A stretch of 31,672 nt of DNA from a virus. Positions 2,105 to 31,442 of this stretch are shown here, piece by piece. The DNA is taken from IMG/VR virus record IMGVR_UViG_3300021962_000403, positions 1 through 31,672 of that record; one strand, given 5' to 3'. The first letter of the stretch is position 1. Each line of letters opens with the position of its first letter. The position numbers were made by a program, and so were the translations under genes. The notes below the pieces were generated by a model. It worked only from the letters and a program-made list of their open reading frames with translations, made no database searches and was not told the origin of the DNA.

Positions 2105-2779
2105 ATGGACAAACAATACGTGTTTTTGGCTGGACTACCTCGTTCTGGCTCAACTCTTTTTGCAAGTATTATTAATCAAAACCCTGATGTGTTTGCTTCA
2201 TCTACATCTTTTTTATGTGATGCTTTATATCATACATATCAAATATGGAATAGCCGCCAAGCACTCCATGGTGGTTCAAATGACGTTGGGGTAGAAAATG
2301 TTATTAAATCAATAATACCTTCTTTTTATGTTCATCAAACTGAGTCTGTAATTATTGATAAATCATTTACCTGGGGCTCTCCGTATAACTTAACTGTATT
2401 AATCAAAGCCCTTGGCTATGTTCCAAAGTTTATTGTTATGGAAAGGGATATTCCAGAAATAGTTGCATCTTTTAAACGCTTGACGGACGTATCACCAAAC
2501 TATAATCAAAATACACAAACATCAATTATTGACCCATGTATAATCTCATATAAAAATTTATTGTCCCAAATACCTGACCGTTGTTTCGTTGTATCTTATG
2601 AACGGCTTTGTAATGACACAGTAAAATTACTTGAAGAATTTTATGCGTTTATCGACGAACCCAACTTTGAACATAACTTATCGCATATTAAAAATACATC
2701 TACGGACAATGACGATATTTGGGGATTGGTAGGCATGCACGACATTATGCCAACTATTAGGATGTACAAAAATGGATAA
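2105..2779 (+). CDS. phage-encoded sulfotransferase family protein
   Basis: The N-terminus reads FLAGLPRSGSTLFASIINQN (residues 7-26), the P-loop-like 5'-phosphosulfate-binding motif of PAPS-dependent sulfotransferases. A second match is FIVMERDIPEIVASF near residue 110, resembling the 3'-phosphate-binding strand and helix with its Arg and Ser. The C-terminal WGLVGMHDIMP segment resembles sulfotransferase-like proteins of cyanophages. At 224 residues it is short but looks complete. The enzyme would move a sulfuryl group from PAPS to a hydroxyl or amine, but the acceptor cannot be read from sequence. No good Shine-Dalgarno precedes the ATG, only an A-rich stretch. The gene is visibly more A+T-rich than its neighbours and overlaps the oxygenase gene by 8 bases. 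I infer that the pair is a transferred cargo module, perhaps for modifying the cell surface or virion. Confidence 0.85.
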   Translation: MDKQYVFLAGLPRSGSTLFASIINQNPDVFASSTSFLCDALYHTYQIWNSRQALHGGSNDVGVENVIKSIIPSFYVHQTESVIIDKSFTWGSPYNLTVLIKALGYVPKFIVMERDIPEIVASFKRLTDVSPNYNQNTQTSIIDPCIISYKNLLSQIPDRCFVVSYERLCNDTVKLLEEFYAFIDEPNFEHNLSHIKNTSTDNDDIWGLVGMHDIMPTIRMYKNG

Positions 2780-3365
2780 CAAAAATGAGATTTTGATTGA
2801 GGCTTGGTTTCCTAAGACCACATATACCATAATCAATCTGCATCTCTCTAATTTGCCTAAATATAGAAAAGAAATTCTTAAAATAGTAGCGGAGAAAAGT
2901 ATACGAACTGACGCAAACTACGTTGAGACAACTCACGGCATAACTGAAAAAGATTTAAAAAACAATTTAGTTTTCAAAACACTCAGAAAAGACATATTAA
3001 CTCACGCAAACAATTACAGTAAGGCTTTAGGTTATGACCTACAACTAAAGATAGATAGCATGTGGGCAAACGTTAGCAAAAAGGGTGATTATCTTTTCCC
3101 TCATAATCACCCAAGCAGTTTATTTAGCGGAGTTTTTTATGTTAGTGCCGAAGAAAAACTAGACACTATTAAATTTTACAACAACATTAATAACATGTTA
3201 TTGCCTGTTTCGAAACAAAACTTGAACGAACTAAGTTACGAAACATGTACGCATTCTTGCATTCCAGGTAAATTACTTATTTTTAAAAGTGATTTTCTGC
3301 ACGGCTGTCCAGCGCTTAAGGGTGAGGAGAAAATAGTGATATCTTTTAACATTACTCAAAACTAA
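2772..3365 (+). CDS. 2-oxoglutarate/Fe(II)-dependent oxygenase (2OG-FeII_Oxy_5-like)
   Basis: The start overlaps the sulfotransferase stop by 8 bases, so the two are probably co-translated. The 197-residue product matches the phage-enriched family often called TIGR02466 or 2OG-FeII_Oxy_5. It has MWANVSKKGDYLFPHNHPSS with His111 and His113, then FSGVFYVS on the next strand. Later comes IPGKLLIFKSDFLHGC with His177 as the distal iron ligand, and a closing strand IVISFNITQN. Lys187, or a nearby basic residue, may take the place of the usual arginine that binds 2-oxoglutarate. Such enzymes hydroxylate a substrate using O2 and 2-oxoglutarate. Members are widespread in cyanophages, with largely unknown substrates. 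Pairing with a sulfotransferase suggests that hydroxylation could create the acceptor for sulfation, which is my inference. The gene is A+T-rich like its partner. Confidence 0.85.
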   Translation: MDNKNEILIEAWFPKTTYTIINLHLSNLPKYRKEILKIVAEKSIRTDANYVETTHGITEKDLKNNLVFKTLRKDILTHANNYSKALGYDLQLKIDSMWANVSKKGDYLFPHNHPSSLFSGVFYVSAEEKLDTIKFYNNINNMLLPVSKQNLNELSYETCTHSCIPGKLLIFKSDFLHGCPALKGEEKIVISFNITQN

Positions 3366-14450: not shown

Positions 14451-14623
14451 TGAGAACATGGAACAGTCCAATTGTCAACGCATTGAAGACGGACGACGCT
14501 ATTGCGTTGCAACAAATCTTTTCTTCGTTGTCGCAGGAGATTGGTCGCATTAATGAAAAAATTGAACAGATACAAATTGAAATGGCTCAATCAAATCGCA
14601 GGGATTATCAAAGGATTAAGTAA
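14450..14623 (+). CDS. 57-aa coiled-coil microprotein
   Basis: This short frame fills the gap between two longer genes exactly: ATG 14450 overlaps the previous TAA by one base and its TAA (14621-14623) overlaps the next ATG. The sequence starts MRTWNSPIVNALKTDDAIAL and continues with SSLSQEIGRINEKIEQIQIE, a heptad-like helix with Ile/Leu at core positions. A basic end NRRDYQRIK follows. It is probably an oligomeric tail or neck component, or a small chaperone for the fibre. The perfect fit with flanking genes is the main argument that it is translated. No homologous family is recognised. Confidence 0.65.
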   Translation: MRTWNSPIVNALKTDDAIALQQIFSSLSQEIGRINEKIEQIQIEMAQSNRRDYQRIK

Positions 14624-17189: not shown

Positions 17190-20100
17190 ATGGCCAAACC
17201 GCCAATTAGTGGAGAAGATTTCCTAAAAGAATTGGGCAAGATTTCTGCCAAAAAACAAACTCAAACCACCACGGGTGGCTTGGGTAAAAGTCCATTGCAA
17301 AGTTATTTCGAAGCAAAGGACGCTGAAGCCGCAAAAGCGGCAGAAGCGTTAGGTGTTGCTGGCAAAATTCTTAAACCAGTTTTTAAAGCTGTTACCGTTC
17401 TTGACGCAGGAAAACGAGCAGCGGTTTCTGGTGTCAGAGAAATTGTGGATGTTTTGGATGCTGACCCAAACACGAATGCAAGTTGGTCAGATTTTGTTAA
17501 ACAATCAAAAGATGAAACTTATGGTTTTGGCACAGCGTTCCCTATAAAAAATAAATGGGGCGGAAGAATTGTTGGGTTCATAGGCGATACCGTGCTAGAC
17601 CCTTGGACATATGCAACCCTTGGTGGTGCTGTGCCCGCCAAAGCGACAATGAAATCGATAATGTCGGGTGGCAAAATTATTTCTAAGGGTGGCAAAACAA
17701 GAGAAATATTGGGTGGCATTAAATATGTGCATGGTCGCGAAGGGCGACTCGCCCTCGCGAACCTTGCAAAATCACGCATGGAAGCAATGGGCGAGGCAGG
17801 GATTAGAAACTTTACCAAAGATGAATTTGGTAAAGTTTTTAGAGATGTTGCTGCCAAAGGCAAAAAAGCACTTCCCGGATATTTGCGTGACGATTTGGGT
17901 ATTCGTGGTCCTGGTATTTATTATTTTGGTTCAAGAGTAAAACTTCCTGGTTCTGGTCCAGTTGGCGGTCTTTTAGAAAATTTGGTTACAGGCGCACGTT
18001 TAGGACTTGTAAAAAATCCTGTTGGTCAAAAAGTGATGAAGTATGTGACACCAGATGGAACATTTCAAGCAGCCTACATTGACAATCAATCCGTATTAAG
18101 AGACAGGGTTGCTTTGGCTTCTGGAACCTTAGAAAACGGAGACATCTTAACTCCGCAAGAAGCATTGAATGCTGGTGTGCGTTTGCGCATGGCGCAAAAT
18201 CAACGCATAGCAACAGCCAAAAACGATGAGTATGTTACGCAAGAAGTTATCAGAGTTGTTAATGACCCCGATATGGAAGCAAACAGATTATCTCTTACTT
18301 CTGTTTTGGAACAAGAAGGCGGTATAGAAACTGCGGACAATGTTGTTGGTCCACTTGCCCAAAAAGTACGAAACTTTTTGGATTCAAGACTTAGTGATGC
18401 TCAACGAAAAGCAAATGAGGTTTCTGAAGAATACGGTGCACAATTTGCAAGAAAAAGAAATTATGTTCCGCACATGGAATCAGATGAAGCTGTTGTAGAC
18501 AGACTGAAAATGGGTGAGGAAGCCTGGAAGGCAAGAACTGGTGGTGCCGCTATTGATGACAGTCACAGGTTTGCTTCTTCGTACAGAAGAAGAAGTTTGC
18601 AGCCTGGAGATAACTTTTTTGGACACACTATAGAAAATAGACCGTACACAATTGACGAGTTGAATGATATGGCAAAAAATCCTGGGCCTCTTTTGAATGA
18701 CGTAACAAAACAGCCATTTGAACCATTGACTTATAATTTTTACGAAAATGACATGGTTAAAATTTTGCAAAAATATTCTCGGCACTTTGCACAGCAACAA
18801 GGATTTACTGAATATTTGCTAACAGCAAAACGAGAAGGTGGAGATTTTTTTAGAGTTCTTGCAAAAGACGCAGAAGCAGACCCGTTGGTTGCGATTGATA
18901 CTAGCGACGCTGTTGGTGAACTTACTTCTCGCGCCATAACATCTGCTGGCAGGGTTGGTATTGAGGCAACAACTGACGTTGCTGTTCCTACACCTGCAAC
19001 CATTGCGCCCACACCTGCGACTATTGCACCCAGCCCTACAGTTGCTGTTCCATCACCTGCTACGGCTGTTGATAATTCAATTGACCAATTAGCAATTGAC
19101 CCAATAGGAACTTTGCAAAGAATTGCGCGTCAAAAAAATGTAGAAACAGGAAATTTAGAAACATTTTACCCTGCCACAAACTTGACACCTACTGTGTCCG
19201 AACCAGCGGCGATTGCTGTTCCGGCAACGCCTTCAGTAACGCCTTTGCCAGTTAGTCAAAATTTAGTAAATACGATAGATGAATTTGGTTCAACACTCAA
19301 TGATTTAAAAAACGTTTTTGAAGTTCCACCCAAAATGTTGTCAGACATTTTGGATGGATACGAAAAGGTAAGAGACAAACTTGTTAACAATCTGACAAAA
19401 GAAGGAATTGTTGCTGAAACAGTTTCTGGAGTGCAGGCGTTGGCTCGCGACTTACAAAGAATGGTTGAAATGGGGAACTATGTTCCCAAACGGTCAACTG
19501 TTGTCAATAGTGCTGAAGCCGGTACTCGTTTGGGATTTGACAACGTAATAGATAAAAAAACAATTAATTCTATTCAGGCATTAATAAAAAACTTGTCTAT
19601 AGCTGATGCGGACACAATTGACAAAACAATTGCGTTTGCACTTAAAGATGTTTTCAACAAAGTTGACAAACAACTATTTGCTTCATCTGAAACAAAATTT
19701 GGAGTATTGCAAGCTTTTTACGAAAAAGCTAAAAGATTGAAAAACATAAGAACGGCAAGTCTTAAAAAACGAAATCTGTCTCGAGTCGAAATTGCCAAAA
19801 ATGATTTGCGCTATGGTTTTGCTTTGCAGGACATGCAAATTTTTGGAAACATAATTAAAGGAATTGACGAACGAATTAAACAGTATGTCCAATTTAATTT
19901 TGGTCCGTCTGTTTTAAATCAAACCGAAATAGAAGATATTGCCGCCGAAGTAACTTTGTTGTATGTGTTTCAGACACAAAGAGAGTTGGACCGTATTGCG
20001 AAGTTGCAAAACTTAATTCAAAGAACAGTTACTGACGAAGGTGGTCTAGAGGAAGAAATTGCAATAATTAAAGGATTGATTCCAGATTTGGATTTGCCTT

Positions 20101-23100
20101 TAAGCACGGAAGATGACCTTGCACAATTTATCCGCGTGTATCTTGGCGATGCTGTGAATGATGGTTTGTTGGAAACTCAACGCAAATTATTAAAACAAAG
20201 AGTTTTGGATTTAGAAACGAATTCTTTTTCTAATGTTGCTATTGAAACGGTTTTGGGTCGGGAACCCAAAACCGCTTTAGAGATAAGCAATGAAGTAATA
20301 AAGATTAAAAAGACCGTAAACGTAAGAGCAACAAAGGTTAATACGGAAAGCCGTCGTGCGGCACAGCTAAAAAAGTATCCACAAAATGAACAAAAATTAT
20401 TTAACGCACACTTGCAGCAATTGGAAACAAGAAAAAAAGATATTATAAAACGTCAACAAAAAATTCTTGCAAGACAAAGAGAAGTTAAAAGAATTCAAGT
20501 AGACGAAGAAAATGTTCGTACAAGTATTTTTGTAAAAATACAAAAATACATCAATGAAACAAAACTAAAAGATTGGTTTCGTCCACAGCCAGCACGGATA
20601 GCGGGTCAACCATCAACAAGATTTAGAGACTTTTTTCTTGAGTCCATGCCACAAGTTTTAGGCAAAAATAAAAGATATTCCAATCTTGATGACATGACGC
20701 AAAAGTTTGTTAACGAAAACAACCTTGCCTTTGATGTGTTGGATATTCTTTTAACCAAAAATCCAAATGCAGTAATTGATGCCGCTGATTTTCAAACAGT
20801 ATTAGATATTGCGTTTTCAAATTCGGCAAGAGCTAGAAAGTATATTGCTGAAGCCCGCAAGATTAGTGGGCGCACAGATATAGCAAACTACGACGATTTA
20901 AAGAATTTTCTTTTTAGTGAAGCGGGTGCCTCACAGAGAACAAACAAACAAGTTGCTGATGGTTTGTTTGCGTCTTTGATGAATGATTTTACTAATGATG
21001 TGGCTGAGGTTTCTAAATTAACCGTTAATGAATTGCGTAGGGATGTAGCAATTGCCAATAGGGCAATGCTTTTGGCAGAACAAGAAATAGAAAAATTAAC
21101 AAATCAATTAAACGAATTGTTGCCTGACGAATATTTTACGAGATTTCAAAATAGTATTTTACCGGAACAATCAAGACAGGCTTTGGAAACACCAACAGAA
21201 ATTCCGTTAGCTAATCGCATCAATCCCGAAACTGGTGAAATTATTGGGCAACAAAATTTGGCTGCCAACAAACAAATGTTGTTGGAAGAAAATGATTTTT
21301 ACCCACAAGCCAAAGCTGTTTTGAACCGTATGCAAAATTTGCAACAACTTGCCAATATTGATGGCAGCATGGTTGACTGGACTTTTGGGGGAAGAATACA
21401 GTTTTTATACAATAATCAACCAATGTCATTTACGCCCCAAGAGTGGGATGCGTTTGTGAGCCCACGCAATACTGCTTATGTTCCAAACGACAAAATACAG
21501 TACATTGTTTCACGGCTAAAAGATGAAGATTTGCGTCGCATTGTTTTAGGTGATGATTACACCGACCAAACAATACCTGACGATGAGATGTTGCAAAGGT
21601 TTGTTTCGTATGTTTCCAAAGAACAACCTGATGCTTTTGCTAGTGAACCAACTTTTCTTGCACGACAAGAAAAGATTGGTGAAGTTTGGAACAAATCGGA
21701 TGCCAATAAATTCTTATTTGAACATACCAGAGTTAAGAATTTGGCTGCTGAAGAAGCAGCTAAAAGACAACCAAAGAATGTTGTTAGCGAATTAGACAGA
21801 GAAATTAAAGGTTTGGATAATCAAATTGATTATTACACCACGGAAAGAGTTAGGACTCAAGAATGGTGGGAAACTTACGGGGCTAGCGAAAGACCCCTCA
21901 ACGCTGTTGAGTCTTTGCAACAACAAACAAACAGAATTAATAGATTAACTAATTTAGAATATAGCGACGTTTATCAAGGTTCGCAAAAAGAAATTCCTCA
22001 AGGCTTAAAAGCAAGACCAAGACCTGGTAGTCCCGATTATGACAGTTTAGTCATATTGGGTGTGCCCGAAAATATTTTAAATTCTCCAAATGTCAAAGTT
22101 TTGAATGACTGGTTGAGGGAGCATCCAGAAATTTTTAATTCAATTTTGGCTAATTTTAACGATATCCAAATCAGCGATTTGGATGAGTTTATTTTTATGA
22201 CGCCCACAACCCGCGCAATGCGCGACAAACAGGTTGAGGTTTTGAAGGCAATAAAAAGAAATGGTTTAGAAACTAACCGTACACGAAACAAGAGTATTAG
22301 CAAACTTATTAGGGATAAAGAAAGACTGTTTAGAACGCCCGAGGAAGATAAGGTTCTTGCTGACACAATCGCTAAACGAGCACAGCAGCGGGCAAGAATA
22401 GAAGAAATTAAAAAGAAACAGGCTGCTGCGAAAGTTGTTGACCAGCCAAAAGAAATATCACCGCCAGCAACGGCTGCATCAAGTTACAATCCTGACCTTC
22501 CGTACCATCAACAAGCAGCCAATGTTGAGCGACGAACATTGCAATCTGTGGCAGATTTACCACCTGAAAAAACAGAAACAATCAATCGTCTTGTTCAACA
22601 ATTTGACTCCCAATACGACGAATTTGACAAGACTGCACAAGCAGAGGCGCTTAAAGAGGCTCAACGAACAAAGGGCGTAATAGCGTCTGATTCAACGGTT
22701 GTTGACTTTGATGCTATGGCAAGAATGAGAGATACCGAAAACATTTTAGCAAGTGTTAAAAAACGTGGAACCGCAACACCTGTGGAAGAAGTTCTTTTGG
22801 ATGCAGGAACAAAAGAAGCCGAGGCAATGGTTGTTGCTTCCCGACTTCCGCAAACGGAAGTCGAGGCAAGACTAATGGATGGTTTGGTTTCCATGGCAAA
22901 ACCAACAACACGAACCGTTCCGTTTACTGCAAAAGAAACTGGTATTGCCGACATGATAACGGAAGGATGGAAACGTCTTGGTGCAAAGTTTGACGACATC
23001 CAAGTAAGCCCAGAGTTTTATGAACTTTGGAAAAACGCAAAATATTTTGAAGACCCAGCATTTGTACGCCAAATGGCAAATTTGGTTGGTGGATACACAA

Positions 23101-24071
23101 AATTCCATAAAGCCTACGCAACGCTGACTCCAGGCTTTCATGTTAGAAACCTCATAGGCAACGTATTTCAATATGTGTTAGCCGGTGGTCAAATAGCGCA
23201 CTATCGTCGCGCTAGCGAAATATTTTTTGCATGGAACGAAGCATACAGTAAAGGTGTTTCGTGGAAAAAGTTTTTACGAACTTTGACACCAGAAGAACAG
23301 GTATTTGCAACCAAAGCCAGAACCGCAACGCTTGGTTCTGGTGGCGGTATTTATAGTGACTTGTTCCAAAGTCTTGTTCCGGGCAACAAATCTTACGATT
23401 GGGCGCTTACTCGCGCATCTCGTAATCTTGGTCAAAAATCGGACAACATGTCACGTTTTATTCTTGGATATGATTCTGCTGTCCAGGGCATGAGCGTAGA
23501 CATGACAATAGCAAGAATCAAAAGATTCTATTTTGATTACGAAGACCTATCCAAACTTGATAGAGCAATGAGACAGTTTGTGCCATTCTGGATTTGGACT
23601 TCACGAAACCTTCCACTACAATTACAAAACATGTGGCTTAACCCGAAGCCGTATCAAATATACAATTCTGTTGTACGCAACTTGCGAGACAAAGAAACCG
23701 AACAAGAACAACCATTGCCTATTTGGTTGCAACAAATTAATGCATTCAGAATTCCAGGGTTGCCGCTTTATGCGGCACCCGACCTTGGCTTTACAAGAGT
23801 ACAACAACAACTCGAGCAATTGGCTATGCCCAAAAAGTTTGGTTCAAACCTTAACCCGTTGTTGAGAGTTCCAATTGAACAGGCTTTGGGTCAAAACTTA
23901 TTTAATGACGAAAAACTAGAATCACCGAGCGACAGAATAATAAACATTGTTCAGGGAAGTTTTGTGCCCGTTTCGCAAGTTGACCGTTTGCTCAATTCAT
24001 ATGGTGACGCTAAAATTAATGCTTGGTTAGGATTCTTTGGTTCACCAATTAAGAAAATCAAAAAGGAATAA
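17190..24071 (+). CDS. giant internal virion / ejection protein, 2293 aa
   Basis: This single gene takes up over a fifth of the window. The N-terminal part has FIGDTVLDPWTYATLGGA (about residue 128), resembling the 'G...D..TYLT.GG' start of large phage polyvalent proteins. Two Pro/Ala/Thr linkers lie near residues 600-625 and 667-690. A long Lys/Glu/Gln-rich, coiled-coil-like middle follows (about 980-1140 densest). The C-terminal domain (about 1905-2270) includes YTKFHKAYATLTPGFHVRNL, FDYEDLSKLDRAMRQFVPFW and WTSRNLPLQLQNMWL. This Trp/Pro-rich domain resembles polyvalent-protein-associated domains of actinophages. I see no lysozyme, protease or ADP-ribosyltransferase motif. It is probably ejected with DNA like T7 gp16. 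The third-position bias to A/T is stronger than in the capsid genes. Confidence 0.75.
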   Translation: MAKPPISGEDFLKELGKISAKKQTQTTTGGLGKSPLQSYFEAKDAEAAKAAEALGVAGKILKPVFKAVTVLDAGKRAAVSGVREIVDVLDADPNTNASWSDFVKQSKDETYGFGTAFPIKNKWGGRIVGFIGDTVLDPWTYATLGGAVPAKATMKSIMSGGKIISKGGKTREILGGIKYVHGREGRLALANLAKSRMEAMGEAGIRNFTKDEFGKVFRDVAAKGKKALPGYLRDDLGIRGPGIYYFGSRVKLPGSGPVGGLLENLVTGARLGLVKNPVGQKVMKYVTPDGTFQAAYIDNQSVLRDRVALASGTLENGDILTPQEALNAGVRLRMAQNQRIATAKNDEYVTQEVIRVVNDPDMEANRLSLTSVLEQEGGIETADNVVGPLAQKVRNFLDSRLSDAQRKANEVSEEYGAQFARKRNYVPHMESDEAVVDRLKMGEEAWKARTGGAAIDDSHRFASSYRRRSLQPGDNFFGHTIENRPYTIDELNDMAKNPGPLLNDVTKQPFEPLTYNFYENDMVKILQKYSRHFAQQQGFTEYLLTAKREGGDFFRVLAKDAEADPLVAIDTSDAVGELTSRAITSAGRVGIEATTDVAVPTPATIAPTPATIAPSPTVAVPSPATAVDNSIDQLAIDPIGTLQRIARQKNVETGNLETFYPATNLTPTVSEPAAIAVPATPSVTPLPVSQNLVNTIDEFGSTLNDLKNVFEVPPKMLSDILDGYEKVRDKLVNNLTKEGIVAETVSGVQALARDLQRMVEMGNYVPKRSTVVNSAEAGTRLGFDNVIDKKTINSIQALIKNLSIADADTIDKTIAFALKDVFNKVDKQLFASSETKFGVLQAFYEKAKRLKNIRTASLKKRNLSRVEIAKNDLRYGFALQDMQIFGNIIKGIDERIKQYVQFNFGPSVLNQTEIEDIAAEVTLLYVFQTQRELDRIAKLQNLIQRTVTDEGGLEEEIAIIKGLIPDLDLPLSTEDDLAQFIRVYLGDAVNDGLLETQRKLLKQRVLDLETNSFSNVAIETVLGREPKTALEISNEVIKIKKTVNVRATKVNTESRRAAQLKKYPQNEQKLFNAHLQQLETRKKDIIKRQQKILARQREVKRIQVDEENVRTSIFVKIQKYINETKLKDWFRPQPARIAGQPSTRFRDFFLESMPQVLGKNKRYSNLDDMTQKFVNENNLAFDVLDILLTKNPNAVIDAADFQTVLDIAFSNSARARKYIAEARKISGRTDIANYDDLKNFLFSEAGASQRTNKQVADGLFASLMNDFTNDVAEVSKLTVNELRRDVAIANRAMLLAEQEIEKLTNQLNELLPDEYFTRFQNSILPEQSRQALETPTEIPLANRINPETGEIIGQQNLAANKQMLLEENDFYPQAKAVLNRMQNLQQLANIDGSMVDWTFGGRIQFLYNNQPMSFTPQEWDAFVSPRNTAYVPNDKIQYIVSRLKDEDLRRIVLGDDYTDQTIPDDEMLQRFVSYVSKEQPDAFASEPTFLARQEKIGEVWNKSDANKFLFEHTRVKNLAAEEAAKRQPKNVVSELDREIKGLDNQIDYYTTERVRTQEWWETYGASERPLNAVESLQQQTNRINRLTNLEYSDVYQGSQKEIPQGLKARPRPGSPDYDSLVILGVPENILNSPNVKVLNDWLREHPEIFNSILANFNDIQISDLDEFIFMTPTTRAMRDKQVEVLKAIKRNGLETNRTRNKSISKLIRDKERLFRTPEEDKVLADTIAKRAQQRARIEEIKKKQAAAKVVDQPKEISPPATAASSYNPDLPYHQQAANVERRTLQSVADLPPEKTETINRLVQQFDSQYDEFDKTAQAEALKEAQRTKGVIASDSTVVDFDAMARMRDTENILASVKKRGTATPVEEVLLDAGTKEAEAMVVASRLPQTEVEARLMDGLVSMAKPTTRTVPFTAKETGIADMITEGWKRLGAKFDDIQVSPEFYELWKNAKYFEDPAFVRQMANLVGGYTKFHKAYATLTPGFHVRNLIGNVFQYVLAGGQIAHYRRASEIFFAWNEAYSKGVSWKKFLRTLTPEEQVFATKARTATLGSGGGIYSDLFQSLVPGNKSYDWALTRASRNLGQKSDNMSRFILGYDSAVQGMSVDMTIARIKRFYFDYEDLSKLDRAMRQFVPFWIWTSRNLPLQLQNMWLNPKPYQIYNSVVRNLRDKETEQEQPLPIWLQQINAFRIPGLPLYAAPDLGFTRVQQQLEQLAMPKKFGSNLNPLLRVPIEQALGQNLFNDEKLESPSDRIINIVQGSFVPVSQVDRLLNSYGDAKINAWLGFFGSPIKKIKKE
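20248..20274 (+). repeat. perfect 11-bp inverted repeat inside the giant gene
   Basis: CGGTTTTGGGT (20248-20258) and ACCCAAAACCG (20264-20274) are exact reverse complements separated by CGGGA. It lies in the coding sequence around residue 1020. It could form a stable RNA hairpin or be an operator-like DNA palindrome. Chance is possible, but an exact 11-bp match with a 5-base loop is rare in A+T-rich sequence. Confidence 0.5.
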
Positions 24072-25026: not shown

Positions 25027-25300
25027 ACGGGTCTATCCCTTCTTCGTTTAGGTGTTCTTCAATTGTATCAATCAAAGCACTTAAGAACCCCATTATGTGT
25101 AGCCAGGCATCTAAGTTGCCTTGTGTGCCGTCATAGTAGGCGCGACACAATCTAATGGCACTATCGTTTGTGGCAGATAAAACAATGTTTACACCGTTGT
25201 CCAAATTTTGTTGAAGGCTTTTAGCCTTTGATTCTATTTCCTCAACTTGCTTGGCTGGGATAATGTCATATATCCAATCTTGCGATTCTTTACTTGACAT
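25016..25300 (-). CDS. hypothetical protein, 94 aa
   Basis: The start at 25300 (MSSKESQDW) overlaps the end of the upstream 46-aa gene by 11 bases. A longer in-frame start at 25384 would overlap it much more. The sequence is helical: IIPAKQVEEIESKAKSLQQN, then VLSATNDSAIRLCRAYYDG, and a final hydrophobic helix pair (LDAWLHIMGFLSALIDTIEE). No zinc, ATPase or DNA-binding motif is recognisable. The upstream A-rich stretch is not a clear Shine-Dalgarno, so translation is probably coupled. I do not recognise the family. In this position, the distal early operon, small host-interaction proteins are common. Confidence 0.6.
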   Translation of the reverse strand: MSSKESQDWIYDIIPAKQVEEIESKAKSLQQNLDNGVNIVLSATNDSAIRLCRAYYDGTQGNLDAWLHIMGFLSALIDTIEEHLNEEGIDPYAK

Positions 25301-25430
25301 GTTTTTTCTTTTTGTTATGAACGTACAAACAGTTGGTTTGTAAACCGTTTTCCAAAACTCCACGACCAATATCAATGGGTCCATAGTGTTTTTCTAAAAT
25401 TGCCGCAATTTCAGATGCTGTGACGGGCAT
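25290..25430 (-). CDS. 46-aa microprotein with basic tail
   Basis: ATG 25430 lies one base after the TGA of the HTH-DUF1599 gene, and the TAA at 25290-25292 overlaps the next start. The product begins MPVTASEIAAILEKHYGPID and ends in a lysine cluster (HNKKKKHVK). The first helix resembles half of a helix-turn-helix, but a full DNA-binding domain does not fit in 46 residues. It might be a small nucleic-acid-binding or regulatory peptide. The assignment as a gene rests on its tight placement. Confidence 0.5.
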   Translation of the reverse strand: MPVTASEIAAILEKHYGPIDIGRGVLENGLQTNCLYVHNKKKKHVK

Positions 25431-25431
25431 T

Positions 25432-26280
25432 TCAAATCCAATCACTAACTGACTCGTTCGCATAATTCTCTCCTAGTTCCAAATGAAATGTTTCGTCGTT
25501 GAGCATCAAAGCTATTACACAATAGCCCACTATGTCTCGTAGCGTATCAAGCAACGATTCATTTTGTGCTTTAGATTTTTTGGACTTAAGATTATTCAAA
25601 CGCTCAATTTTGTCAGACAAACGAACAAGAACACCCCTGAGACCAAACGCGGTTATGTTGCCATGACCATAATCATGTTGTTTTGATACCAGCAAAGAAC
25701 ACATTTCTCCAGAGTCCCAAACTTTACGTAAGCGCAACTCCTGAATTGCTTCAATACCTATTTCTGTCCAAAGCAAAGATACCGGCAGGTCATCGTCGTC
25801 GAATAAACATTTTTTTGCCGACTCGCAAAGACGCATAAGTTTTGCGTTGTTAGTTTCTATTTCTTCTGTAGCAAACGACGCAATGTGCATAACCCATTGA
25901 CTTGCCGATTGTTCCCATGTGTCAACCACTCTGACCTTCTTTCTAATTAACGGGTGCATTGTTAGTAGCTGTTGTAGTTTAGCATAAGCATTGTTCTTGA
26001 GTCGCCAAGCGTGAGGCTTGGAAACGCCAAGGCGTTTACCAAGCTGCTCGTAAGAAAGAAACTCGCTGTTGACGGCGTTCACAATGAATTGGTCTTGCTC
26101 GTCAAGTTGCTCAATACACATTGCTACTGCTTCGCGTAGCGGTTGTAGTTCTTCTACTGATTCTTCTATTGCGTCGGACACAGAAAGCATCAATGCTTCC
26201 ATCGCCGTTTGTGGGCGTTGTTTATTTAGATAGGTTGATGAAAAGACGTAATTGTCTTGGGGTATGTCATTTTTTGACAT
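25432..26280 (-). CDS. sigma region 4-like HTH fused to a DUF1599-like domain
   Basis: I start at ATG 26280 (MSKNDIPQDN), which overlaps the upstream gene by 14 bases. Other in-frame starts (26298, 26367) lie deeper in that gene. In the 282-residue product, residues 57-107 read QLDEQDQFIVNAV, FLSYEQLGKRLGVSKPHAWR and LKNNAYAKLQ, like the sigma-70 region 4 HTH that reads -35 elements. Residues about 120-190 form an unassigned helical middle. Residues about 194-262 carry LLVSKQHDYGHGNITAFG, RLSDKIERLNNLK and ESLLDTLRDIVGYCVIAL, matching the DUF1599 (nucleotide modification associated domain 1) pattern. No sigma region 2 is present, so it is not a complete sigma factor. It may be an atypical regulator or a nucleotide-sensing transcription factor; the joined function is unknown. 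Confidence 0.7.
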   Translation of the reverse strand: MSKNDIPQDNYVFSSTYLNKQRPQTAMEALMLSVSDAIEESVEELQPLREAVAMCIEQLDEQDQFIVNAVNSEFLSYEQLGKRLGVSKPHAWRLKNNAYAKLQQLLTMHPLIRKKVRVVDTWEQSASQWVMHIASFATEEIETNNAKLMRLCESAKKCLFDDDDLPVSLLWTEIGIEAIQELRLRKVWDSGEMCSLLVSKQHDYGHGNITAFGLRGVLVRLSDKIERLNNLKSKKSKAQNESLLDTLRDIVGYCVIALMLNDETFHLELGENYANESVSDWI

Positions 26281-26695
26281 CGTCGTATGCGGGGTCATAG
26301 AGGAGTTGTGACACTTCCTCTGGCAACAACAAATAACCTTTCGCTGGATTATTTGTGCCTTCCGCAAACAACCTAATTCTTGACTTCGGTAACATTTCTA
26401 TATAACGCTTTAATCTTTCCGTGGACACCACTATCATTGCTTGGTTCATAGTATACACATAGACCCACCACTCTGCCTCAGTTACCATAATCCCTGAGGG
26501 TTTCCACCCATGTTTACGGGGGTTTTGGGCTATTTCAACCACCATTTTGCCGTTCCGATAGCGGTCAGACTTGACCTCAAACGAGCCGTTAACAATTCCT
26601 TGCAGGAATTGTTTAACTTGGTCTTCACCTTGTTTGCCAAACTCCAAATCTTTCTTAAAGTTTGGCTTTGGAATATCCCATCTAGATTCTTTCAT
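26267..26695 (-). CDS. PD-(D/E)XK endonuclease, resolvase-like
   Basis: The product has 142 residues, and its ATG overlaps the RusA stop by four bases. Motifs fit a small PD-(D/E)XK fold: a helix with LEFGKQGEDQVKQF (E24), then GSFEVKSDRYRNG (E40, K42), then MVVEIAQN (E54, Q57), and finally PSGIMVTEAEWWVYVYT, a strand-helix often seen in phage Holliday-junction or structure-specific nucleases. The active-site lysine placement is not the textbook E-x-K after the second acid, so the catalytic set needs structural checking. It follows RusA, so two junction-processing enzymes may work in sequence, or this one may trim recombination intermediates or degrade host DNA. I am fairly sure of the fold, less of the substrate. 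Confidence 0.7.
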   Translation of the reverse strand: MKESRWDIPKPNFKKDLEFGKQGEDQVKQFLQGIVNGSFEVKSDRYRNGKMVVEIAQNPRKHGWKPSGIMVTEAEWWVYVYTMNQAMIVVSTERLKRYIEMLPKSRIRLFAEGTNNPAKGYLLLPEEVSQLLYDPAYDDVKK

Positions 26696-27033
26696 TTTTT
26701 CCTCAACTCCAAACTGATGATTTGTTTATCGTCTGTATAAGCTACACCATTTAGGGCGTCAAGTATTGCTTTAGCATAATTATCTATATCGCCGCGTAGC
26801 TTGGATGGATTACGTTTAGGTTTTAATTCTTTAATAGTTATTTCTGTTTTGTCGTTATCAAAAATTAACGTGATATGTAATGGGCCATCGGCAAAGGCAA
26901 CACCCGAATATGCTTCTGAAATTTTTTTCTCATATTCTCTAGTCTCTTTGGGGGTGTAAGTATGACCGGAACGAGTACTACGAGGGCGCTGTTTAGAACG
27001 CGGTTTGATGTTGAATGTTTGTTTGTGTATCAT
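26692..27033 (-). CDS. rusA: RusA-family Holliday junction resolvase
   Basis: The 113-residue length is typical of RusA. The N-terminus has IKPRSKQRPRSTRSGHTYTP, which matches the basic 'P..KQRPR......YTP' start of the family. The catalytic part reads RGDIDNYAKAILDALNG with D82 and D84, followed by AYTDDKQI with D101/D102. These correspond to the conserved aspartates of Escherichia coli RusA (D70, D72, D91). The enzyme dimer binds four-way junctions and makes paired nicks, which would resolve recombination or branched replication intermediates before packaging. Its start overlaps the primase stop (ATGA) and its stop overlaps the following nuclease gene. The assignment is secure. Confidence 0.93.
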   Translation of the reverse strand: MIHKQTFNIKPRSKQRPRSTRSGHTYTPKETREYEKKISEAYSGVAFADGPLHITLIFDNDKTEITIKELKPKRNPSKLRGDIDNYAKAILDALNGVAYTDDKQIISLELRKK

Positions 27034-27911
27034 TCGCCATATACATCAGCAATAATTTTTGCTAAGTGCATTTCCCCGTCTTCTCTATCATAAAATTTGC
27101 CCCAAGTTTTATCAGCCGTACGGATAATACCATACGCTATTTCTGGTGGCACACCATCAGACCTTAGCCTGTACGCAAGACGCACAAGCGTACCTGAACG
27201 GTCAGAAGTTGGTAAAGGACCTTCCATGAACATTTTGAATGTGTATGGCGACAACAAAGTTTTGGCTACATCAATGGGAACACCAGCACTATTCGCAGCA
27301 AACTGAACTGGGGATTTCGGAACATAAAGTTTTGCAAGAGGTTCCAAATCTTCTTGCACTACAGCATAGGTTGTTGCTTCACTAACAAAAGTTTCTAGAG
27401 ACATAGGTTTATCAGAACTATCAATAATGTAACGAACCGAACATGGCTCAAATAAAGCACCAGGATACGGCAAACGGACATAATTACCGTAACCCGATGC
27501 TTCTTCCTGTTTGGGATTAATTTCTTTAGCCGGCACTTTAACAGCGGCGTGTGCGGCGAGCAAAGCTCGACGCATCACGCGAGCATCAACTGGTTTTCTG
27601 GCAAACACCCATACATGAAAACCTTTAACAGTTTTTTCAACCCAACTCTCAATTAGTTTAAGTTTGAGAGCCAACTGAATATTGCGAGCCTGGTCAATGT
27701 CGTTCACATCAATATCCGAACACCCCCACCAAACCGTGCTGTTATCCATCATTGGGTAAATGCCAATGTACTCTTGCCCCCACAAATGCTTTGTGTACGA
27801 ACCAAGAGTTACTGGTTGCTTAATGCAACCACCTTCCCAAGAGCCATAAGCATCGGTGCGACCAGCAAACAACGCTGAAAAGTTTTTAACTAATTCAGAA
27901 TTGTCTGTCAT
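27030..27911 (-). CDS. archaeo-eukaryotic-type primase (AEP / PrimPol-like)
   Basis: I chose ATG 27911 (MTDNSELVKNF), 17 bases inside the helicase end, over the longer 27944 start. The 293-residue product has a catalytic core of the AEP superfamily. EYIGIYPMMDNSTVWWGCSD leads into the DxD pair (D66, D68 in SDIDVND), then VEKTVKGFHVWVFARKPV with H99 of the sxH motif. KEINPKQEEASGYGNYVRLP follows, the 'PKQ...GN.v.LP' segment of TOTE/PrimPol-like primases. The C-terminal part is helical and may be a PriCT-like module (DRSGTLVRLAYRLRSDGVPP). It should synthesise primers, perhaps also short DNA, with the helicase encoded directly upstream. No zinc finger is visible. Confidence 0.85.
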   Translation of the reverse strand: MTDNSELVKNFSALFAGRTDAYGSWEGGCIKQPVTLGSYTKHLWGQEYIGIYPMMDNSTVWWGCSDIDVNDIDQARNIQLALKLKLIESWVEKTVKGFHVWVFARKPVDARVMRRALLAAHAAVKVPAKEINPKQEEASGYGNYVRLPYPGALFEPCSVRYIIDSSDKPMSLETFVSEATTYAVVQEDLEPLAKLYVPKSPVQFAANSAGVPIDVAKTLLSPYTFKMFMEGPLPTSDRSGTLVRLAYRLRSDGVPPEIAYGIIRTADKTWGKFYDREDGEMHLAKIIADVYGE

Positions 27912-28950
27912 GAAAACCCCGCAAATACTGTTTAGGTAAATCACCGTTAATTAACGGCGTCAACCGACCAGTAGCCAAGTCTAATTCAAAATCAATATCG
28001 TCAACAAGTTGACCAGCTGGACGTTTGTTTTTCAACAAACTTACAGTAACCGTATACTCATGAATTTTGGCTTCATAACGCAAAGCATCTAAACGCTCCA
28101 TAGAGCGTTCGGAATGAGTTTTATCTAACTTGTTAATAATCTCATTCATCTCAGCCATAATAGAATATTTTTTACGGCGAACACCAATAACCGAAGTTGC
28201 TTGTTGTTCACCACCAAAAGCACCAGACGACATAGTTAACTTCATGCCGTCAGCACCCGAACTCCGAGAAGTTTGATGCAACACCAGCAATGGCACATCA
28301 TGCCTACGACCAAATGACTTAACAAATGTCGCTTTATCAGGCACAGTTTCACCAGCACCAACAAGGTCAAGATAATCAATCACAACCAAATCGGGTATCT
28401 GACCCCAAACATCGGACACTTCGTTGTAAGCCCGCTCCATATCCAAAGCGGTCAAAGGCTGGTCAAACACAGCAAGATGCGGAAAGTTTTCTTCCGCTGT
28501 TTCGCGAAGCAAATCAATAGCGTCACGGTCATCCATTGCAACAAGACGCTCCAACTCTCGAGCATCAATACCGTGGTACATACAGGTAAGTTTTATCAAA
28601 ATAAGTTGACGAGGTTCGTCGGGGATAAACATTGCAATATGTTTGTCACGATTATGCAATAACGAATGAAGCAACAACAGCGTTTTACCACCGTGTGCAT
28701 AGCCAATCATCATTGACATTTCGCCGGCAGCAATACCACGCATCTCTGCGTCTATTTGTTGCAAACCCAAATGAATGCGTTCGTGTGGGCTTTGCGCCCA
28801 ACGAACAAACGAATGTGCAGCTTCAGCCAATGGTTCATACATTCTGAACTCTGAAGGCGGAGTAACAGCAGAAAGGTCAGGTGAAACTGAGTTCACCTGA
28901 CCCTCAACCGCATTCCAACCCGCAGAAATTTGTTCTGCGGTTAATTTCAT
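27895..28950 (-). CDS. DnaB/RecA-like replicative helicase ATPase
   Basis: ATG 28950 shares a base with the previous TAA, giving 351 residues. The RecA-type core shows IHLGLQQIDAEMRGIAAGEM leading to Walker A GYAHGGKT (83-90). Next come a strand IAMFIPDEPRQ (106-115) with the usual acidic residue after it, Walker B DLVVIDYLDLVG (187-198), and LLVLHQTSR (221-229), the sensor-like strand with His and Gln. This is the DnaB-family C-terminal domain pattern. The N-terminal domain of DnaB is absent, as in many phage helicases. It would form a hexamer that unwinds DNA at the fork, coupled with the adjacent primase. The alternative is a recombination ATPase of the Sak4/RadA type, but lack of a RadA zinc finger and the primase neighbour favour a helicase. 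Confidence 0.85.
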   Translation of the reverse strand: MKLTAEQISAGWNAVEGQVNSVSPDLSAVTPPSEFRMYEPLAEAAHSFVRWAQSPHERIHLGLQQIDAEMRGIAAGEMSMMIGYAHGGKTLLLLHSLLHNRDKHIAMFIPDEPRQLILIKLTCMYHGIDARELERLVAMDDRDAIDLLRETAEENFPHLAVFDQPLTALDMERAYNEVSDVWGQIPDLVVIDYLDLVGAGETVPDKATFVKSFGRRHDVPLLVLHQTSRSSGADGMKLTMSSGAFGGEQQATSVIGVRRKKYSIMAEMNEIINKLDKTHSERSMERLDALRYEAKIHEYTVTVSLLKNKRPAGQLVDDIDFELDLATGRLTPLINGDLPKQYLRGFHDRQF

Positions 28951-29369
28951 TATCGTGTCTTTGGTGCCCAATAAGCTTTATCGGCATCAACGGCTTTGAA
29001 CCAAGGACGCTTAGGGTTTACTGACAAACCATCACGATTGTCATACACCTTGGTTACACCATCACGCTTACATGCTTTGATAAGCCAGTCTGGCAAATCG
29101 CCATGTTGTTTACCAATAATCTGCAACACCCCACCAACAGACTCACTGGTTGCACTGTTGTTTACGGGTGTTGCATTGAAAGTTGATTTTGCCATTTCAT
29201 AAATTTGAGCATCTTGACTGCCATCAATGATTTCAAACATAATGTCTTTCACACTTGTGAACAAAGTTGTAAATTCGCCCAACTTTGTATCGGTGTCTGC
29301 TTCCTTATTGACGAGGTCTGACGCAATTTTTGCGGCGACCTGGGTGATTATTGCCCTGTCCTTATCCAT
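28950..29369 (-). CDS. conserved protein of the replication module, 139 aa
   Basis: AGGAG at 29377-29381 (reverse strand) fixes the start at 29369 (MDKDRAIITQVAAK). The N-terminal half is helical and acidic (LVNKEADTDTKLGEFTTLFT). A Ser/Thr/Asn linker follows, then a compact C-terminal part with LPDWLIKACKRDGVTKVYDN and NPKRPWFKAVDADKAYWAP. The latter, with its 'YDNR....NP.RPWFK......YWAP' signature, looks conserved, but I cannot name the family. It lies between the Cas4/RecB-like nuclease (8-base overlap) and the helicase (1-base overlap). A single-strand DNA-binding or annealing accessory role is plausible from this context. Its good ribosome-binding site suggests higher expression than its neighbours. 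Confidence 0.65.
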   Translation of the reverse strand: MDKDRAIITQVAAKIASDLVNKEADTDTKLGEFTTLFTSVKDIMFEIIDGSQDAQIYEMAKSTFNATPVNNSATSESVGGVLQIIGKQHGDLPDWLIKACKRDGVTKVYDNRDGLSVNPKRPWFKAVDADKAYWAPKTR

Positions 29370-30204: not shown

Positions 30205-30388
30205 TAGAACCTTCCTTAAGTCGTTCAACCTTACCACGCCGACCCTTCGGTTGGCGTGGTACTTGTTCTTTGCCCCCCGCTATTGGGTCTCCGCTACCCC
30301 CCTGAAGGGGGATTATATAAAAACACATTTGTGTACGGTCTGTCAAGCATTTAGGTTCAACACCAACACCCCAAACTATGTTTGCCAT
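30194..30388 (-). CDS. possible 64-aa Gly/Arg-rich small protein
   Basis: The frame from ATG 30388 (MANIVWGVGVEPKCLTDRTQ) to TGA at 30194-30196 overlaps the transglycosylase stop by 13 bases and the nuclease start by 11. The other overlaps in this operon are of similar size, so it may be a real gene. The second half is Gly/Lys/Arg-rich (GGKEQVPRQPKGRRGKVERL). Against it, the stretch holds a promoter-like element and two hairpins, and GC-rich runs are unlike neighbouring coding sequence. No family is recognised. The region is therefore either a small gene or a regulatory spacer. Confidence 0.45.
   Translation of the reverse strand: MANIVWGVGVEPKCLTDRTQMCFYIIPLQGGSGDPIAGGKEQVPRQPKGRRGKVERLKEGSNEN
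30232..30261. other. 13-bp inverted repeat
   Basis: TACCACGCCGACC (30232-30244) pairs with GGTTGGCGTGGTA (30249-30261) around CTTC, with one wobble position that is G-T on the plus strand and A-C on the minus strand. It lies 28 bases upstream of the nuclease start. A second small stem (CCCCC 30298-30302 with GGGGG 30307-30311, loop TGAA) is nearby. Operator or mRNA-processing site are both possible. Confidence 0.5.
30312..30346 (-). promoter_or_regulatory. promoter-like element (weak candidate)
   Basis: On the minus strand TTGACA (30346-30341) is followed by TATAAT (30317-30312). Both hexamers are perfect consensus, but the spacing is 23 bases instead of about 17, so function is doubtful unless an activator reshapes the site. 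It would drive the nuclease-helicase-primase part of the operon. Confidence 0.3.
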
Positions 30389-30906
30389 GGAAGCCACCCA
30401 TTGCCGTGCTTTCCATCTGAATACAGCCATATTAAACGGGCTGATAACAGATTAATTCGCGGATAAAACAATTCTTCACAGCTTTTTAAAATTCCAAAAG
30501 CTTGCAAGTATCCGTTTGGATACCATTTTGAAGGCTTACACCAATAGGCATTGATTTGAAGAAGTCCATATGAGCCACCATTGGGGTCTTCGCTGTAATG
30601 AACAGCCGTATAACAGCGAGATTCACGGTGCATAATATGGTCGAGCATTTCTAAATCTTCTTCTTGCCAACCTGTGTCAGTAGCTAACTGTGCCCATTGC
30701 GGACACAACATATTATTAGGCAACCTAATAACATCTTTAGGTGGAATAGGGATAGGTTCAACTGGGTCAACAATTACATCAAAAGATGTAATTGTTTCAT
30801 TAGGGGGTCGTGGAACGGCGTTCCGGTAGCCCGCAAGTTTGGGTGGTGTCAATAACCACACAACACCCGCAGTACAGGCAACACCTACAATAAATCGTTT
30901 CAACAT
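30376..30906 (-). CDS. membrane-anchored lytic transglycosylase (SLT/lysozyme-like)
   Basis: AGGAG at 30914-30918 (reverse strand) precedes ATG 30906. The product has 176 residues. The N-terminal MLKRFIVGVACTAGVVWLLT is a signal anchor. A Pro-rich spacer follows (VPRPPNETIT, VDPVEPIPIPPKD). The catalytic domain (about 66-176) has DHIMHRESRCY with E95 as the probable general acid, GGSYGLLQINAYW (111-123), and CEELFYPRINLLSARLIW, matching the 'ES....G..Q.N......L.dp..N...a' layout of SLT/goose-type lysozyme folds. It ends GNGWLPWQT. It would cut glycan strands from the outer membrane face. Its location in the early arm, away from the late lysis genes, is odd. It could loosen the wall early, act in superinfection exclusion, or be a delayed lysis factor. 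Confidence 0.8.
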   Translation of the reverse strand: MLKRFIVGVACTAGVVWLLTPPKLAGYRNAVPRPPNETITSFDVIVDPVEPIPIPPKDVIRLPNNMLCPQWAQLATDTGWQEEDLEMLDHIMHRESRCYTAVHYSEDPNGGSYGLLQINAYWCKPSKWYPNGYLQAFGILKSCEELFYPRINLLSARLIWLYSDGKHGNGWLPWQT

Positions 30907-30915
30907 TATTATCTC

Positions 30916-31212
30916 CTAGTCAAATATGCGTTTTCTGGGTTTACGATGAGAACCAAACACAACACCACCCCAAACACCAATACAATGATGTTTGTAGGCA
31001 AAGTTATAACATTCTTTTTGAACCTTGCATTCACCACAAATTTGTTTAGCATTGTAAACATTTGTGCCAGGCCCACTAGGAATTTTACCTTTAGTAATAG
31101 CAGGAAAGAACCATTCACTAGGACAATTTTTACAATTAGCGTCAGCGTAAATAGGTTTTAGTTCATTGTACATTTTTTCACTAAGTATTTGTTCTTGTTT
31201 TGTTTTTTCCAT
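30916..31212 (-). CDS. whiB: WhiB-family Fe-S transcription regulator
   Basis: ATG 31212 overlaps the upstream TGA by one base (TGATG), and GGTGG at 31219-31223 (reverse strand) may be the ribosome-binding site. The 98-residue protein has the WhiB cysteine set: C30, C59, C62 and C68 (an extra C27 lies two residues before C30, and C77 is further on). NVYNAKQICGECKVQKECYN holds three of them, for a 4Fe-4S cluster. The G[VI]WGG turn follows at 79-83 (GVWGG), and then a basic tail GSHRKPRKRIFD for DNA contact. WhiB proteins bind the host principal sigma factor and alter promoter choice. In phage it probably redirects host RNA polymerase or blocks host WhiB. The family is limited to actinobacteria and their phages, which fixes the host phylum. 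Confidence 0.93.
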   Translation of the reverse strand: MEKTKQEQILSEKMYNELKPIYADANCKNCPSEWFFPAITKGKIPSGPGTNVYNAKQICGECKVQKECYNFAYKHHCIGVWGGVVFGSHRKPRKRIFD

Positions 31213-31442
31213 CACCAACCACCCATTTCTTTAAATGATTTACCATTAACATCCCAACCCGCATCACGAAGAAGTTGCGACATAATTTCACAACCGGACT
31301 CGCGAACATAAGAACGAAATAGTTCTTCTATGTCTTCTAATGCGACACAAGCCATTGCGCCTTTGAGATGTGGCATGCAATCACGCACATCGCTATCTGT
31401 AAACGCTACAGACATTTGTATTGCCGCATGACGGTTTTCCAT
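31212..31442 (-). CDS. hypothetical protein, 76 aa
   Basis: AAAGGAG (31447-31453, reverse strand) fits ATG 31442. The product begins MENRHAAIQMSVAFTDSDVR and has two or three cysteines (DCMPHLKGAMACVALEDIEE, SGCEIMSQLL) in a helical context, ending GWDVNGKSFKEMGGW. The cysteine spacing does not match a known zinc or Fe-S motif. It is coupled to whiB by a one-base overlap, so it may be functionally linked to it, for example as a regulator partner, but this is only context. No family is recognised. Confidence 0.65.
   Translation of the reverse strand: MENRHAAIQMSVAFTDSDVRDCMPHLKGAMACVALEDIEELFRSYVRESGCEIMSQLLRDAGWDVNGKSFKEMGGW

Follow-up and report, generated by a model that had tools for sequence, protein, structure and literature searches.

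A sigma region 4-like helix-turn-helix gene merged with DUF1599 in a phage lineage, with a candidate internal start kept at the junction

The fused gene and its genomic setting

The window analysed here, i.e. the whole 31,672-nucleotide stretch of the viral record IMGVR_UViG_3300021962_000403, carries near one end of its minus-strand genes an open reading frame of 282 codons that joins a sigma-70 region 4-like helix-turn-helix (HTH) to a DUF1599 domain. The plus strand across 25432-26280 is stop-rich and the frame is open on the minus strand only. The assigned ATG start is favoured because relatives L004, L007, L010 and L012 carry no in-frame ATG or GTG further upstream. The features of the locus are listed below.

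25432..26280, minus strand: fused HTH-DUF1599 gene, 282 aa, ATG start, stop codon at 25432-25434
25951..26160, minus strand: sigma-70 region 4-like HTH domain, residues 41-110 (Pfam match to residues 55-103, 25972-26118)
25930..25944, minus strand: Shine-Dalgarno (SD)-like stretch AGAAAGAAGGTCAGA, codons 113-117, at the HTH/DUF1599 junction
25927..25929, minus strand: predicted internal start GTG, codon 118, with a predicted 165-aa product
25711..25926, minus strand: helical middle region, residues 119-190, equivalent to the beginning of the DUF1599 protein in its ancestral, stand-alone form
25471..25710, minus strand: DUF1599 domain, residues 191-270 (Pfam match at 25504-25683)
25290..25463, minus strand: small downstream gene, 57 aa, beginning within the 3' end of the fused gene and with its own SD
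26267..26695, minus strand: upstream neighbour of PHROG 13596 (PHROGs, E=3e-32), overlapping the fused gene by 14 nt
26692..27033, minus strand: RusA-like Holliday junction resolvase (PF05866, E=1.5e-19), a conserved cassette member
27030..27944, minus strand: AEP-type primase (PF22548, E=8e-18), used as cassette marker
27895..28971, minus strand: DnaB-like helicase (PF03796, E=6e-10), used as tree marker

The minus strand holds a replication cassette with the fused gene near its end, convergent with the late genes of the plus strand, which encode a terminase, a P22-like portal, scaffold, head and internal virion proteins. The 57-aa downstream gene, a small protein without annotation, is kept in relatives, and the PHROG 13596 gene was found by sequence in most, not all, of the fused loci. 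By eye, the stretch FEVKSDRYRNGKMVVEI in the PHROG 13596 protein resembles a PD-(D/E)XK-type nuclease motif, with no Pfam match. A scan of the operon for promoters gave no excess over shuffled sequences. The same minus-strand block contains a WhiB-like gene (30916-31218; PF02467, E=1e-10), which is present in the clade of the window and also in L031 and L032. WhiB proteins have been described in Actinobacteria and in phages of these bacteria, so that this gene indicates an actinobacterial host. The lineage is one of podovirus-like phages of roughly 37-42 kb, with Actinomycetota as the probable hosts.

Three other regions of the window deserve mention in their own right. Upstream of the terminase, a sulfotransferase-like gene (PF13469, E=3e-12) and a 2OG-Fe(II) oxygenase gene (PHROG 81, E=1.5e-33) overlap, the pair occupying 2105-3365 on the plus strand as possible auxiliary genes. 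A plus-strand ORF of 2293 aa at 17190-24071, more than one fifth of the record, has no Pfam match and may encode a large protein that is associated with the virion or injected. Finally, an SLT_3 lysozyme-like gene (30376-30906, minus strand, below cut-off) lies in the replication-side block and not with the late genes.

Two known domain families in one protein

On the single sequence, the Pfam model Sigma70_r4 (PF04545) matches residues 55-103 with E=0.0026 and 17.7 bits, below its cut-off of 24.1, and the NCBIfam sigma70-ECF match to the same part (E=4e-7) is likewise below its own cut-off. PHROGs 1740, 36 and 351, annotated as sigma factor or transcription regulator, also match the HTH part, the values for PHROG 36 ('transcriptional regulator') ranging from 1e-4 for the window protein to 3e-9 for split relatives. 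Since the single-sequence match was weak, a family profile was built from 20 relatives; against the PDB it retrieved region 4 of solved sigma factors (6pfj at E=2.4e-10, with four more below 1e-8; 8x6g at E=4e-10). In the AlphaFold model of the 282-aa protein (mean pLDDT 77) the HTH reaches 86-90 and superposes on isolated region 4 structures with TM 0.7-0.8 over about 58 residues (Foldseek probability 1.00, with E-values near 1 due to the short match); it was the sole part matched when the whole protein was searched by fold against the PDB. The family profile and the AlphaFold model together secure residues 55-103 as a sigma-70 region 4-like HTH, where a preliminary description made from the sequence alone had seen one at residues 57-107. 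Its putative recognition helix (HAWR...A...L) is its best conserved part. As that description also held, the protein cannot be a complete sigma factor, because region 2, responsible for core binding and -10 recognition, has no match in the 282 residues with Pfam or NCBIfam models.

The DUF1599 half was recognized directly. The profile searches recovered both domains, DUF1599 above cut-off from the single sequence and the HTH, below cut-off there, with the family profile. PF07659 matches residues 200-259 (E=3e-7, 31.1 bits against a cut-off of 25; E=1.5e-9 in a second search), within the 194-262 or so expected from the preliminary reading, and it matches all 31 aligned relatives, among which the pattern DYG / RxxDKxxR / E-x3-D-x3-D is invariant. 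PHROG 1485 covers this part as well (E=2e-15). DUF1599 occurs in many phages and some bacteria, its name and predictions pointing to nucleotide modification or defence; we found nothing in the literature on its function or activity. Modelled alone, it forms a confident helical bundle (pLDDT 87.6, pTM 0.85) in which two long neighbouring helices carry the invariant R100-D103-K104-R107 and E121-D125-D129 (A4 numbering), spaced so as to occupy one face of each helix. In the model these polar faces resemble a binding site for a ligand or metal. Despite the good model, searches of the PDB by sequence or by fold returned no solved homologue of DUF1599.

Two enzymatic readings of this domain were rejected. 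MazG (PF03819) has no match within the window at E≤0.001, and this search as well as the PDB sequence and fold searches with DUF1599 left a MazG-type NTP pyrophosphohydrolase without support. An HD-hydrolase reading of the motif KQHDYGH was discarded since distant members of DUF1599 have other residues in place of its first histidine (KNRDYG, KHKDYG); a 'guanosine polyphosphate pyrophosphohydrolase' of the phage record MW202803 appears HD-like by eye, and no match was obtained for it.

The helical stretch of some 70 residues between the two domains, hitherto described as unassigned, aligns with the first ~70 residues of stand-alone DUF1599 ORFs, including a TWxxA motif, and has a pLDDT of 78-98 over most of its length in the AlphaFold model. 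On this alignment it is no extra domain or linker but the helical beginning of the DUF1599 protein that related phages encode separately.

The module exists in fused and split forms

Relatives were collected from IMG/VR, 54 from a search with the single protein and 80 more loci, some on contigs already found, from a search with a DUF1599 alignment. As many as 43 distinct sequences, drawn from many metagenomes and with identities of 33-100%, carry the full-length fusion. The open fusion being so recurrent, the error joining two genes that had been named as a caveat to the single-polypeptide reading is excluded. Relatives with split genes do exist, as an artefact of sequencing or assembly would lead one to expect, but in addition to the recurrence across samples there is purifying selection on either side of the junction: compared pairwise with the window gene, each of the four segments has a dN/dS of about 0.0-0.22, dS being close to saturation or saturated. 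We consequently give an artefact a negligible probability.

In split relatives, an HTH protein of ~110-135 aa is followed by a DUF1599 protein of ~150-190 aa encoded by an adjacent, overlapping gene, the ATG of DUF1599 overlapping the HTH stop by 1-32 nt, mostly with an SD-like stretch. The pair comes after RusA, from which the gene of PHROG 13596 often separates it. We considered that a programmed ribosomal frameshift might join the split ORFs and rejected it, as the frame offsets vary by locus and the DUF1599 ORFs each have their own ATG. In INPHARED, the sole related record found with DnaB was MW202803, a circular 42-kb 'Podoviridae sp.' genome, where a stretch left without annotation (MW202803.1, 4900-7010) carries split HTH and DUF1599 genes.

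The association of both genes is strict within this lineage. Among loci with the primase/DnaB cassette, HTH and DUF1599 are paired in 77 of 77, of which 41 are fused and 36 have the HTH gene immediately upstream and overlapping; these counts refer to loci with full flanks after removal of duplicates and contig-end truncations, and about 30 of the counted loci lay outside the set used to build the HTH profile. In contrast, none of the 24 DUF1599 loci without the cassette, from phages and MAGs (IMG/VR and MAG data), has an HTH beside it (Fisher p=1e-23, before correction for relatedness). Searching GTDB genomes for a host yielded just three loci, all with DUF1599 alone and without HTH. DUF1599 in general does not, therefore, require the HTH, and adjacency within one lineage could be due to operon inheritance alone. 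On a DnaB tree, the fused and split states require four changes, at least three of them forced by well-supported branches, for instance where the fused L033 is nested among the split L035, L038 and L084; it is to be noted that this is a quick tree with several long branches, which gives no direction to the changes. Fusion or fission has thus happened repeatedly.

A candidate internal start is kept at the junction

Within the fused gene, the stretch AGAAAGAAGGTCAGA precedes a GTG at 25929-25927, and its duplex with the anti-SD (-5.4 kcal/mol) is the best among the 12 in-frame internal ATG/GTG codons and equal to the value at 14623, a predicted gene start. It is a moderate value: of the ATG/GTG codons in the whole window, 9.8% score equal or better. 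The GTG, which is codon 118, is invariant in 11 distinct close relatives and sits where the stand-alone DUF1599 starts in relatives. A likely start at this position is a new element with respect to the preliminary description.

Comparable signals are found at the junction of many fused genes elsewhere in the family. The clade of the window has AGAAAGAAGGTCAGA-GTG, L029, L031, L071 and L072 keep AGAAGGAGA...ATG in frame, L033 keeps AAAAGGAGAAAAT-ATG and L070 AGAAGGAGAATCAAA-GTG, also in frame, most of L079-L097 show GAGGT...ATG, and the L080 and L087 groups likewise keep an SD with ATG or GTG. Junction ATGs average an SD energy of -6.2 kcal/mol, whereas the remaining internal methionine codons of the same fused ORFs average -1.9 (p=2e-8, a significance that is overstated as the rows are related and not independent). 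From one fused sub-lineage (L016-L028 and L073-75) the internal start has mostly disappeared.

In the 11 distinct sequences of the window's clade, synonymous variation falls to 0.03 over the GTG and the five codons before it, compared with a gene mean of 0.34, which places this dip at interior rank 3 of 256 windows. In the start-less fused sub-lineage, the same spot is unremarkable (rank 56 of 205). The lowest values of all are found at the 3' end of the fused gene, at the overlapping start of the next gene (one row was misplaced in that run), and this dip at the beginning of the 57-aa gene serves as an internal positive control. The SD-like sequence and the in-frame GTG, conserved together with depressed synonymous variation, lead us to predict an extra product of 165 aa, so that the gene would yield both the 282-aa fusion and a DUF1599-only protein. 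Whereas the domain families of the 282-aa protein are known, a module that is fused or split and retains a start at the junction is new: the two genes would have merged without loss of the former start, which makes for a sharp prediction of two products.

Possible function of the module

The strict pairing, the overlapping translation and the repeated fusion argue that HTH and DUF1599 act as a single complex, and we consider it somewhat probable that the locus encodes a merged two-gene module in which a region 4-type transcription regulator works together with DUF1599. The HTH part, a minimal region 4-type protein comparable to phage late regulators or minimal phage sigmas, would most likely contact promoter DNA and/or the flap of RNA polymerase. 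It may bring DUF1599 to phage promoters or to the polymerase, or DUF1599 may tune the activity of the HTH, and the complex could in either case tie phage transcription to the replication or nucleotide state. In the sub-lineage of the window both parts lie in one chain, and the retained SD and GTG probably still provide free DUF1599 of 165 aa, which would set the HTH:DUF1599 ratio. The earlier suggestion of a transcription regulator accompanying nucleotide metabolism is plausible and has been strengthened by the 77 of 77 pairing and by the repeated fusion or fission.

The same data could be accounted for by mere convenience of the operon, the HTH regulator and DUF1599, as a nucleotide-pool enzyme, being independent early proteins whose overlap ensures translational coupling and whose fusion by stop loss has no functional meaning. 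The overlapping starts of the split forms do make fusion a one-step accident, and the fact that several fused sub-lineages still have the internal start suggests a need for free DUF1599. We nevertheless hold this explanation to be rather unlikely, since the pairing persists over strongly diverged phages while the neighbouring PHROG 13596 gene comes and goes, several independent fusions or fissions have persisted, and the L016-L028 sub-lineage persists, as judged from its sequences, with the fusion alone. Another alternative makes the HTH a decoy that mimics region 4 of the host sigma, displacing it or pairing with a phage WhiB-like protein. WhiB proteins bind region 4 of sigma-A, a WhiB-like gene lies in the same block and the HTH has the sigma-4 fold, but WhiB was detected in some loci only (flanks are often too short to tell) and the best conserved part of the HTH is the putative recognition helix, as contact with DNA would predict. 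A decoy is in our opinion quite improbable.

A narrower form of the module-complex explanation is a switch: by binding or hydrolysing a (modified) nucleotide, DUF1599 would turn the HTH from early to late promoters. The family name and the conserved polar helix faces are in keeping with it, and the gene ends the replication operon, a frequent place of late regulators (PMC13123087). Against it stand the lack of a MazG match over threshold in the window, of a solved-structure homologue of DUF1599, of a named DUF1599 activity in the literature and of any excess over shuffles in the operon promoter scan; nucleotide sensing by DUF1599 is speculative and a switch of this kind appears doubtful. Equally tentative, and unlikely as it stands, is a fuller version in which two in-frame starts would supply fusion and free DUF1599 to a complex bound at the promoter or polymerase, DUF1599 reading or editing the nucleotide pool so that transcription follows replication. 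If true, such a two-start nucleotide-reading complex would be the first functional context for DUF1599. Returning to the merged regulatory module in its general form, the strict and repeatedly fused partnership with an HTH puts DUF1599 into a context that can be tested, namely transcription.

Comparison with known systems

The window protein shares with sigma-70 region 4 (PF04545/PF08281) an HTH of ~60 residues with the region 4 fold and sequence profile; it differs from sigma-70 factors in having no region 2 or 3 and in carrying DUF1599 instead. Minimal single-HTH sigma factors and the flap-binding HTH of gp33 have been described in phages, and these one-HTH proteins bind promoter DNA and/or the polymerase flap (PMC7824862). 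With them, T4 gp33 included, and with the late regulators RinA, ArpU and Ltr, the window gene has in common a small HTH protein ending an early or replication module, and late regulators are often located at the end of the replication operon (PMC13123087). No Pfam or NCBIfam model of the RinA or ArpU family matches the protein, which is hit only by PHROGs 36 and 248 ('transcriptional regulator/activator'). Unlike the RinA, ArpU and Ltr genes, it is convergent with the late genes instead of upstream of them and has a fused partner. Ltr lies directly upstream of the promoter under its control (PMC13123087), so that the window gene, being convergent, would have to act in trans.

The DUF1599 half shares with its family (Nucleotide modification associated domain 1; PF07659, PHROG 1485) the pattern DYG ... 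RxxDKxxR ... E/D-x3-D-x3-GY and differs from other members by its N-terminal helical extension and by the HTH, fused here and directly upstream in split relatives. The same architecture, by structure match, is found in A0A6J5QFU4, a 273-aa protein of an uncultured member of Caudovirales that is 78% identical; this is a deposited sequence with an automatic name only ('Clostridium phage phiCTP1, Gp74'), for which we found no function. In the unrelated Geobacillus phage PT9.1, the DUF1599 gene overlaps by 4 nt a regulator gene annotated as ArpU family, Brochothrix phages BL3 and BtpYZU03 have an annotated transcription regulator or activator within about 0.5 kb after DUF1599, and the arrangement is looser in Streptococcus phages. 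These examples, which are not a count, are suggestive of a tendency of DUF1599 in other phages to have a Holliday junction resolvase on one side and a late regulator on the other.
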